Origin: an uncultured Flavobacteriaceae bacterium
GTDB taxonomy: Bacteria; Bacteroidota; Bacteroidia; Flavobacteriales; Flavobacteriaceae
Direction of reading: 5' to 3'
DNA: 64,000 bases
Assembly: GCA_913020295.1 (NCBI GenBank)
Contig: CAJWAA010000004.1
Span: 62,001 to 126,000, forward strand
This document shows positions 57,633 through 62,014 of the stretch, piece by piece (positions within the stretch are counted from its first letter, which is position 1; the number at the start of each line of letters is the position of its first letter). The translations under genes were made by a program, and so were the position numbers. A model generated the notes under the pieces. It did no database searches and was not told the origin of the DNA. It saw only the letters and a program-made list of their open reading frames with translations.

Positions 57633-57747
57633 TCTAAATAAATAAAATGTTGATCAAGAATTCCATTAGATAATTATAAATACAATGTGAAAACTTTAGT
57701 CATTTTTGGATTGATCTATTTCATTTAAGACTTTTTTTGAAAAAATA

Positions 57748-59856
57748 TTACCACCCGGAATTACCGTCAAATTTTGCATGAATGCAAGTAACAGTTAGTT
57801 GTCCATATCCATCTACATGGCCTCGCAGTTGCCAAGTAGGAACTGGGTCATATTGAGTAGAGGATCCACTTCCCATTGGAGTAATGTAAAATTCAAAATT
57901 ACTATAGGTTGAACCAAGCGCAATACTTCCCTCCATTAATGATGTAAAACCATCACTCCAGATTGGTGTAAACCGATCATTATAACCACCACCATCTCCC
58001 AGCCCATATGTCATATTAGATTTTTGAATATATGTTTCAGTAGGTGAATATTCACCACTACTTCCACCAGATCTTATAACCCCAGATATAAACCAATTAT
58101 CCACAATTTCAGAAGATGAAGATTGTTTAACTTGAATTGTATTATATGTGGTATTCCACGAAAATCTTAAGACTCCAAGCTCAAATAAAACAACATCATT
58201 TGCTGCATTTGTTTTGACTTGAGCTGATTTAATTTCAGAATTGTTGGATTGTTGTAGAGCACTTATTTCACTTTTCAAATCTCCAATTAATTGCATTAGA
58301 GAAGTTATCGTTCCATTGTCATTTAATGTCAATTGATCACCACTCCCTTTAAAACCCGTAGCAGAAACAATTCCTGAGGTGGTTGTATCACCATTATACA
58401 TCACTTTAAAAGCGTCAGACCTAGCGCTAGAAGCTGAACCATTTCCAATTACAAAAGCTGGATTGGAAGTTGAAAATGAATCTGCACTTGTTGCTGAAGA
58501 ACTACTTAAGTTATATCTTCCAATTACTAAGGAGCCCCAATCGCTTGCAGTTGTTCTATTGCCCATAGTTACAGAATAATACCCACTTGCAGTGGTGTAT
58601 CGACCTATTGCAGTAGAGCCATATCCACTTGCCACTGTGTAGGAACCAAGTGCAGTAGAGTAATATTCACTGGCTGTGGTATTGAAGCCACTAGCAAAAG
58701 AGCCATAACCTGTTGCACCTCTAATCGAACTACTTTGACCTTGTTTACTTAAATCAACTGCATCACCTCCAATATCTCCGTGATTTGAAGAGTTTGATGA
58801 AGATAGTCTAACTCCTGTATTGTTATTTTCACTAACCGAAGCCAAAACACCAATTTCGGATACCCCATGTAATAGGTTTAATTCGGAAGCTGTTGAAGTA
58901 ATAGCTGTTCCTCCAATATTTAACCCTGCTGCAGATACAACCCCTGAGGTATTTACAAGGGTTACATCTGCATTTCCTAATTGGATAGTGTTTGACGATG
59001 TAACAATTGCATTTGCACCTATAGCAGTAGAGTTTGTAATTGAGATTCCGTTTATCAATGTATTTGCCCCAAGTGTGGTTACATTTGAATGATTAACAGA
59101 AGAGCTCCCCTGATTTTGATAATTAGCTCTATAACCAATATTTACATTATTAGAACCAGACTCATTGTTGTAACCAGAATATTCTCCGATATTGACGTTC
59201 CTACTTCCAGTTTCATTAAAAATAGAATTCGCATAACCAATTGAGACATTTGAATTTCCTGAAGTATTATTGGATAGACTTAAACTCCCAATCGATACAT
59301 TTGTTGCCCCTCCAGCATTATCTTTCATGGAATCTTCACCTATAGATATATTTCTTGAAGTACCATTTGCGTTTAACAGAGAGTTTTTTCCAATTGCAAT
59401 ATTGTTATGACCTCCATTAGATTGACCAATTATTGTACCGATTTGGATATTTGAATTACCTGTAACAAAAGTTTGAGATGATATATTTGTAATTTTAGCA
59501 TACTCAGCAATAGGAACGGTTGCAACTTGCTTAGTTCCCATATCCTGATATCCATTTCCTGTATCTAACTCTTCTTTCATAAACACACTCTGTGACCAAT
59601 CTATATTTGAGTAAGTACCATTAACAATTGTTCCGCCTCCAACAGACAAATTAACGACCCCATCAGCGGGAATATTAACTATATGTTCCTCAACAAAAAA
59701 AGGTGTAGCAGTAGTCGACTGATACATAAGTGAAAACTTCACTTTAACCTGATTATTAGAAATTATTTGTCCACTTGAGTGTTTTATTAAAGCCTGGTAG
59801 TTAAATTGACTATTTACCCCGATTGATACCAGCAAAAAAATAATTGTTTTCCTCAT
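57748..59856 (-). CDS. Large exported beta-roll repeat protein, adhesin-like, function unknown
   Basis: Exported protein of 702 residues. A signal peptide (1-16) precedes a domain (about 17-122) frequent at the start of Bacteroidota surface proteins: FNYQALIKHSSGQIISNNQ, TATPFFVEEH and VATVPIAEYAK. Six 17-residue repeats with NVxIG strands follow (152-253), then a TASELNLLHGV linker (322-332), five 14-residue YadA-head-like repeats (386-455), a short coiled coil (519-536, LMQLIGDLKSEISALQ) and a C-terminal domain of about 150 residues I do not recognise. There is no YadA barrel and no evident type IX secretion tail, so anchoring is unclear. It lies between nadE and dnaG with gaps of 115 and 122 bases. 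Confidence 0.8.
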   Translation of the reverse strand: MRKTIIFLLVSIGVNSQFNYQALIKHSSGQIISNNQVKVKFSLMYQSTTATPFFVEEHIVNIPADGVVNLSVGGGTIVNGTYSNIDWSQSVFMKEELDTGNGYQDMGTKQVATVPIAEYAKITNISSQTFVTGNSNIQIGTIIGQSNGGHNNIAIGKNSLLNANGTSRNISIGEDSMKDNAGGATNVSIGSLSLSNNTSGNSNVSIGYANSIFNETGSRNVNIGEYSGYNNESGSNNVNIGYRANYQNQGSSSVNHSNVTTLGANTLINGISITNSTAIGANAIVTSSNTIQLGNADVTLVNTSGVVSAAGLNIGGTAITSTASELNLLHGVSEIGVLASVSENNNTGVRLSSSNSSNHGDIGGDAVDLSKQGQSSSIRGATGYGSFASGFNTTASEYYSTALGSYTVASGYGSTAIGRYTTASGYYSVTMGNRTTASDWGSLVIGRYNLSSSSATSADSFSTSNPAFVIGNGSASSARSDAFKVMYNGDTTTSGIVSATGFKGSGDQLTLNDNGTITSLMQLIGDLKSEISALQQSNNSEIKSAQVKTNAANDVVLFELGVLRFSWNTTYNTIQVKQSSSSEIVDNWFISGVIRSGGSSGEYSPTETYIQKSNMTYGLGDGGGYNDRFTPIWSDGFTSLMEGSIALGSTYSNFEFYITPMGSGSSTQYDPVPTWQLRGHVDGYGQLTVTCIHAKFDGNSGW
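58492..58701 (-). repeat. Five 42-base units encoding 14-residue YadA-head-like repeats
   Basis: Codons for residues 386-455. The units are SFASGFNTTASEYY, STALGSYTVASGYG, STAIGRYTTASGYY, SVTMGNRTTASDWG and a looser SLVIGRYNLSSSSA. Each has Gly at position 5 and small residues at 10-11, the left-handed beta-roll pattern of trimeric autotransporter heads. Confidence 0.85.
59098..59403 (-). repeat. Six 51-base units encoding 17-residue NVxIG repeats
   Basis: Codons for residues 152-253 in perfect 17-residue register: NIAIGKNSLLNANGTSR, NISIGEDSMKDNAGGAT, NVSIGSLSLSNNTSGNS, NVSIGYANSIFNETGSR, NVNIGEYSGYNNESGSN and NVNIGYRANYQNQGSSS. The strand position is fixed while the turns vary, so the array is old rather than a recent DNA duplication. 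Confidence 0.85.
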
Positions 59857-59978
59857 AATTTGTCTTAAATAATTAAAATTTTGAAAAGGTTATTAGTATT
59901 AAAACTTCAGATTTAGATCAATTTACATTAAAATAATTAAATTTTGATTTTAATATATCAGACATAAATTAAAGTCAG

Positions 59979-61934: not shown

Positions 61935-62014
61935 ATCAGAGGAAAAATTTCTATAAAAGTAAAATTATATGGTCATTAGGCAAAACTCGCAAAGCCAATT
62001 TCAACTTTATTGAT

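Follow-up and report, generated by a model that had tools for sequence, protein, structure and literature searches.

A probable surface fibre resembling mosaic adhesive trimers in an uncultured Flavobacteriaceae bacterium, and a candidate partner in other Bacteroidota

The 64,000-nucleotide stretch analysed here (the window; positions 62,001 to 126,000 of contig CAJWAA010000004.1, assembly GCA_913020295.1, from an uncultured Flavobacteriaceae bacterium) carries a gene for a 702-residue protein that joins two different arrays of repeats. We conclude that this protein is probably a Sec-exported surface fibre resembling the mosaic adhesive trimers (MATs), with its base at the cell, a presumably trimeric shaft of repeats, and an exchangeable C-terminal tip that points outward. 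The parts of the gene, with coordinates counted on the window and the evidence for each part in brackets, are as follows.

57748 to 59856, minus strand: whole gene, MAT-like chimeric fibre protein of 702 residues, ATG start (open reading frame; family by the hidden Markov model (HMM) of the base domain and by NF053851)
59809 to 59856, minus strand: signal peptide, residues 1-16 (hydrophobicity and alignment of relatives; from sequence only)
59482 to 59808, minus strand: N-terminal base domain, residues 17-125, predicted Ig-like beta sandwich (family HMM, NF053851, structure model)
59098 to 59403, minus strand: six 17-residue NVxIG repeats, residues 152-253, presumed beta roll (sequence, shuffles)
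58717 to 59097, minus strand: linker or neck, residues 254-380, with two further units, IG at 279 and LG at 293 (sequence)
58507 to 58716, minus strand: five 14-residue YadA-head-like repeats, residues 381-450 (PF05658 over its cut-off; PDB 1p9h)
58219 to 58302, minus strand: short coiled-coil-like stretch, residues 519-546 (picked out by eye, from the sequence alone)
57751 to 58209, minus strand: putative C-terminal tip domain, residues 550-702 (153 residues), beta-rich, of no known family (identity to relatives; model)

Results

The N-terminal domain is constant while the remainder of the protein varies

A protein search of the window's own genome returned two paralogues that have the first ~125 residues of the fibre protein in common with it and then diverge. 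In the first, of 594 residues (L024:4400-6184, G000:C7), the same base is followed by repeats of DUF285, a Pfam family named from mycoplasma proteins. The second, of 2,496 residues (L025:2714-10204, G000:C2), has many units of the 17-residue type and a C-terminal Peptidase_S74 domain (S74 chaperone); its repeat region includes long near-duplicate stretches. Three fibre genes, all intact, are thus present in this 2-Mb genome. Across the genus, the fibre protein had a match in 7 of 22 genomes, and in 5 of the 22 the match reached the base domain.

An HMM of the base domain, built from 8 sequences, was run against a sample of the phylum at a threshold of E<=0.001. It matched 61 of the 296 genomes, the window's own included, and 39 of the 140 genera; in these genomes the base recurs on proteins that bear a signal peptide. 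For scans with Pfam and NCBIfam, 54 full-length members of the family were assembled. Among them, Pfam (E<=0.001) detected Peptidase_S74 in 15 members, YadA_head in 4 and collagen in 3; DUF285, Lcl_C and C1q each occurred in a single member. At the same threshold, neither a type IX sorting domain nor any anchor family was present among the 13 Pfam families found in the 54 members. The N-terminal domain is therefore the constant part of the protein, and what follows it varies. Because the base is conserved in 61 of 296 genomes while the C-termini vary, the C-terminal domain of the window protein is more likely a distal, exchangeable tip than an anchor.

At E<=0.001, 48 of the 54 members were matched by NF053851, the NCBIfam model for 'mosaic adhesive trimer family chimeric fiber protein' (Bdello_MAT_N). 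The base domain of the window protein, taken alone, matched it with an E value of 9.5e-7 (28.8 bits, profile positions 8-78 of 162). Judged by these profile matches, the base is distantly related to that of the Bdellovibrio MATs. A model of the base (AlphaFold2, 53 sequences) gave a beta sandwich with a predicted local distance difference test score (pLDDT) of 85.6 and a predicted template modelling score (pTM) of 0.78. Its best PDB matches were generic Ig-like sandwiches (Foldseek E 0.0067; VIA Z 6.9, 93 aligned, 3.1 A), and for this reason no function was inferred from the model.

Two kinds of repeat in the putative shaft

A unit of the 17-residue type at residue 136 (IG at 139) precedes six exact repeats of the form N[VI]xIG, in which IG starts at 155, 172, 189, 206, 223 and 240, exactly 17 residues apart. 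When the fibre protein was shuffled 20,000 times, no shuffle gave a run of six, whichever period from 8 to 30 was considered. The 14-residue repeats have [ILM]G at 403, 417, 431 and 445, together with a fifth, degenerate unit that has SG at 389. Runs of four, the length observed at period 14, arose at some period in 120 of 20,000 shuffles, and for this array the stronger evidence is therefore the match to Pfam YadA_head (PF05658; 33 bits against a cut-off of 25). The repeats also matched the YadA head in the PDB (1p9h, E 3.8e-4).

Inspection of the first 30 residues of the protein revealed no cysteine, and hence no lipoprotein box. Neither Pfam (E<=1) nor NCBIfam (E<=0.1) detected a YadA membrane anchor, a type IX tail or an S74 domain in the fibre protein. 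The type IX sorting domains PF18962, PF13585 and TIGR04183 gave no match to it, and its place is absent from the results of a PF18962 search of its own genome. A sorting signal or known anchor was also looked for in the C-terminal domain, and none was found. These results uphold the preliminary description of the gene, which had reported an exported protein with six perfect 17-residue repeats, five YadA-head-like repeats, a short coiled coil and an unrecognised C-terminal domain, without a YadA anchor or a type IX tail. The neighbours that it had named, nadE and dnaG, were confirmed by NCBIfam.

YadA_head repeats that score over the Pfam cut-off might suggest a type Vc trimeric autotransporter that has lost its C-terminal membrane anchor. 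Such an origin is extremely improbable, since an anchor was detected neither in the window protein nor among the Pfam families (E<=0.001) of the 54 family members, and since the relatives bear other C-terminal domains, so that nothing need have been lost.

A second alternative arises from the 17-residue shaft, which matches the phage tail-spike and virion profiles phrog_4636, 6002 and 23837. In addition, a Tenacibaculum phage protein aligns with residues 343-489 at 37%. A locus of the genus, phage-like by eye (L075:8650-14088, G013:C61), encodes a 1,812-residue fibre with the same 17-residue repeats and an S74-like end, and its repeats match the same phrog profiles as the window shaft. Shaft blocks of this kind are therefore shared with phage fibres. 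The window gene could, on these grounds, encode the fibre of a phage, a tailocin or a contractile injection particle stranded in the chromosome. This is very unlikely and already disfavoured: the neighbours of the gene are gldC, gldB, nadE and dnaG, in an order conserved in the genus, and not virion genes. The protein also has a predicted signal peptide, as do the proteins on which the base recurs in 61 of 296 genomes, and its tip found no match in 50,697 phage records or in a scan of viral contigs.

Shaft and tip blocks have moved between flavobacterial genomes

The tip domain was found in two further genomes only, at L026 (G017) and L069 (JABJNS010000069.1), with 84-91% identity; one of the scans for it used only two short peptide patterns, so that distant copies may be missed. 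Comparison of the three genes revealed blocks of very different conservation. Between the window and L026, identity is 68% for amino acids and 74% for nucleotides in the base, 93% and 87% in the 17-residue shaft, and 90% and 86% in the tip, and the YadA-head part has no real counterpart. Between L026 and L069, the corresponding values are 74% and 79% in the base, 40% and 51% in the shaft, and 97% and 98% in the tip. Blocks that adjoin within one gene therefore do not share a history, which indicates block exchange. We conclude that shaft and tip blocks moved between flavobacterial genomes, and that the protein shows the constant N-terminus and exchanged C-terminal tips that define a mosaic. 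Another fibre gene of the genus, at L077:6395-7433 (G018:C13), lies in at least two frames, perhaps as a decaying copy or through an assembly error.

The tip was not found in the 396 other genomes of a family sample. In a phylum sample of 395 genomes only its own genome and one spurious match were returned, and nothing was found among PDB sequences. The spurious match, a weak one in G562, was put down to chance; it runs over stop codons and the end of a gene that resembles birA by eye. A weak match of the tip to phrog_16400 (E 0.0036) was rejected; it is absent from the near-identical L069 tip. The other tip of the genus, at L072/L073, is alike by eye, but the hhalign probability is 0.2% and homology is not claimed.

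The same domain is the best or nearly the best conserved part among its three carriers (90-97% amino-acid identity) and belongs to no known family. Both features could be taken as signs of a new cis-acting domain for surface retention or sorting rather than a tip. We consider this decidedly improbable: the domain was found in only three genomes, and just one copy was detected in the window's own, although a domain for sorting would be expected on further proteins of the same genome. Moreover, the paralogues share the base but have other domains at their C-termini.

A type-IX-tailed protein is encoded upstream of many relatives

Outside the genus, the flanks of 40 loci with 47 fibre genes were read. 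Directly upstream and on the same strand, 33 of the 47 genes have a gene for a 150-217-residue protein with a type IX sorting tail, but neither this count nor its repetition below is one of independent events, because some genomes of the survey are closely related or identical. The gaps between partner and fibre range from -46 to 113 bp, and are below 20 in 26 of the 33 pairs. The tail model had no match in any of the 47 fibres themselves. Examples of the partner genes, encoding ~160 residues, are L130:2041-2526, L133:4613-5095, L138:4369-4848 and L153:4542-5027. All six partners tested exceeded the TIGR04183 cut-off, and Por_Secre_tail (Pfam) was present in 38 of 82 neighbouring proteins when the upstream and downstream sides were pooled. 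The N-terminal domain of the partner, ~65 residues with the pattern 'SGG..SYSVGQ..QGVQQPFEI', matched no NCBIfam family in the two cases in which it was tested alone.

Among the remaining 14 fibre genes, 3 stand second in tandem behind a partnered fibre, and for 2 (L142, L149) a tailed gene lies immediately downstream instead. At L136, at L160 and in the five-fibre cluster L144, partner-like genes lie nearby (by eye). This cluster (L144:1951-15062, G200) packs five MAT-like fibre genes into 13 kb with no usual upstream partner, a partner-like gene standing downstream of one of them. One of its fibres consists of the base domain alone (150 residues) and is followed by a separate open reading frame with YadA-head-like repeats.

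Since the tail model had been built from the first 40 loci, the count was repeated on 25 further fibre places, of which 24 gave a fibre frame. A tailed gene was directly upstream in 17 of the 24, with gaps of -4 to 25; 8 of the 17 had a match to the N-terminal part too, and 9 were recognised by the tail alone. As background, none of the 156 non-fibre genes at the first 40 loci had a tailed gene directly upstream, a weak control because these loci are short. A better control was provided by a reverse search, in which a profile of 20 sequences of the N-terminal part of the partner, without its tail, was run against the phylum sample of 296 genomes. It returned 30 places in 24 genomes, and all 24 were among the 61 genomes with fibres. 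The place lay within 2.2 kb of a same-strand fibre base domain in 29 of the 30 cases (28 upstream, 1 downstream). When only the places not used for the profile were considered, 9 of 10 lay beside a fibre base domain. This pairing of genes makes the type-IX-tailed upstream protein a candidate for a trans anchor of the fibres in the phylum outside the window's genus.

Evidence that weighs against a MAT-like surface fibre

Several results do not favour the interpretation of the window protein as a MAT-like surface fibre. The 28.8 bits scored by its base fall short of the curated NF053851 cut-off of 60 bits, the match covers less than half of the profile, and the full-length chain gives no hit. 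We use the name 'MAT-like' because the architecture and a homologous base fit, yet the curated cut-off of this model of the Bdellovibrio subfamily is not reached. Searches of phage, viral, family, phylum and PDB sequences detected no relative of the tip whose function is known. The structural model of the tip is of low confidence (pLDDT 57, pTM 0.56) and has no clear structural match; the best (Foldseek E 0.07; VIA-align Z 5.4 with 3d33, 82 aligned, 3.2 A) are within the uninformative range. Other results speak against the partner: none was seen near the fibres at L154 and L163, and its profile had no hit in 37 of the 61 fibre genomes, the window's own included. Some of these 37 have a tailed upstream gene with a diverged N-terminal part, and others have none. 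In the 22 genomes of the window's genus, the profile gave no hit at E<=0.001, and in the window's own genome none at E<=1.

Of thirteen weaker hits in the genus (E 0.02-0.36), 10 were read; 9 of them were one PASTA-like protein (by eye) and 1 gave another frame only. The gene upstream of the giant paralogue (L025:1832-2374) is, by eye, not a partner. The window's own genome does have the type IX translocon gene sprA (PF14349), together with three proteins over the sorting-tail cut-off, one of which, of 109 residues, has little beyond a signal and a tail. For the window fibre, then, either the holder has diverged beyond recognition, or another outer-membrane element serves, or the fibre is not displayed.

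The fibre gene occupies a variable slot

The window has gldC, gldB, nadE and dnaG, as named by NCBIfam, around the fibre gene, which lies within the following interval.

57633 to 59978, no strand: variable slot between nadE and dnaG (slot read in 20 relatives of the genus)

Wherever the stretches read in the genus extend far enough, the genes stand in the order gldB-nadE-[slot]-dnaG-prenyl synthase; in the window, gldC precedes gldB. The slot was read in 20 genomes of the genus (L080-L099), the L086 stretch ending at a contig end before dnaG. In 13 of the 20 it contains a GacA/NarL-type response regulator, either intact or as a diverged or partial copy, and NCBIfam named two of these copies as such. 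In three (L093, L094 and L096) it contains a 355-residue exported-looking protein, and in the other four only 27-72 bp. No fibre was present in the slot of any of the 20 stretches; only the window has one. We conclude that the slot is a replacement hotspot in which genes change often, and that the position between nadE and dnaG reflects this variability and not a functional link.

The G+C content at third codon positions (GC3) is 0.21 in the fibre gene versus 0.32 in dnaG and 0.37 in nadE. The two paralogues and two relatives have values of 0.20-0.22, like the window gene. Low GC3 is therefore a trait of these fibre genes and not proof of recent arrival. It could nonetheless be read, together with the patchy occurrence of the fibre in the genus (any match in 7 of 22 genomes, a match to the base in 5, and no fibre in any other slot that was read) and with the failure to find a partner in the 22 genomes, as the mark of a degenerate or orphan fibre. 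Such a fibre would have come into the slot by gene exchange, in a genus without the partner that displays it, and would be made without being displayed or used. This is unlikely. The reading frame is intact, and identity to the L026 tip is higher for amino acids (90%) than for nucleotides (86%), as expected under selection. The genome keeps three intact fibre genes within 2 Mb, all with similarly low GC3, and it has SprA and type-IX-tailed proteins.

Discussion

The data are most readily accommodated by a MAT-like fibre. The protein would be exported by Sec through its predicted signal peptide, and the beta sandwich directly behind that peptide would sit at the cell surface as a base, as its conservation and the published display of MATs suggest. 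The 17-residue repeats, the YadA-head-like repeats and the short coiled coil would form the shaft, along which the repeat types and MAT structures make trimerisation plausible. By the same evidence as for the base, the beta-rich C-terminal domain of 153 residues would point outward, where it may bind a target, probably a glycan or the surface of another cell or particle. Elsewhere in the phylum the base is probably held by the small type-IX-tailed protein encoded directly upstream, as the gene pairing indicates. In the window's genus, anchoring might depend on a partner that escaped detection or on another outer-membrane element. For the window fibre itself, we infer the trimer, the surface display and orientation, and the adhesive function.

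The closest known system is that of the MATs of Bdellovibrio bacteriovorus (NF053851). Their description states that all 21 have a conserved beta-rich domain of ~130 residues right after the signal peptide, with the base placed near the cell surface and the variable C-termini outward (Caulton et al., 2024; PMC10769870). The window protein has the same order of signal peptide, related beta-rich base, repeat shaft and exchangeable C-terminal tip, and MAT members without S74 that have beta-sandwich tips are known. It differs in a base below the curated cut-off, in a shaft of 17-residue NVxIG and YadA-head repeats, and in a tip without a sequence relative; no trace of predation was noticed either, although none was sought. 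Its Bacteroidota relatives also often have a type-IX-tailed upstream partner, whereas the MAT account, in the sections consulted, names no partner. With YadA and other type Vc adhesins the protein shares the 14-residue PF05658 repeats, but no C-terminal anchor was detected and its polarity is probably the opposite, with an N-terminal base and a C-terminal tip. With phage tail fibres and spikes that have NTxIG repeats (phrog_4636, 6002, 23837) it shares the 17-residue shaft repeats; it differs from them in its signal peptide, its housekeeping context, the lack of a detected S74 domain and a tip not found in phages. With type IX cargo (PF18962, TIGR04183) the common ground is the phylum and the partner upstream of the relatives, itself a type A cargo; the window fibre and the fibres of 47 relatives differ from such cargo in having no detected sorting tail.

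The preliminary description had suggested that the protein may be a free or partner-anchored trimeric fibre. An exported fibre without an anchor, perhaps held by a partner, fits the evidence; its polarity had been misread, the N-terminal domain being the conserved end. The exotic look of the fibre came from its reading as an anchor-less YadA adhesin, and the underlying observation is real. The joining of two repeat kinds in one chain is normal for mosaic fibres.

Among the titles and abstract openings searched, in which few subscription journals are represented, there was no account of such fibres in the phylum or of a type-IX-tailed partner. A paper on a marine mobile element (PMC12324425) cites the MAT paper. 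We tentatively propose that the MAT-like fibres of Bacteroidota are one half of a two-gene display system, in which the partner, encoded a few bases upstream, passes through the type IX system, becomes fixed at the surface and, by way of the fibre's base, either holds the fibre or is exported together with it; the window's genus would then be derived, its holder having been lost or replaced. The account of the MATs presents them as the prey-recognition repertoire of a predatory bacterium and leaves the surface element that holds the base unidentified (PMC10769870). If the proposal is true, it answers for Bacteroidota what the base domain binds, a question left open for Bdellovibrio.

The window gene thus represents, in Bacteroidota, a type of fibre that was described only recently, with a tip not seen before. 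The pairing with a tailed partner is the observation most worth following: its tightness makes the partner a direct candidate both for holding the base and for explaining how a protein without a sorting tail arrives at the surface. The occurrence of a related base in about one-fifth of the sampled genomes of the phylum, joined to varied parts, suggests a wider toolkit for surface recognition.

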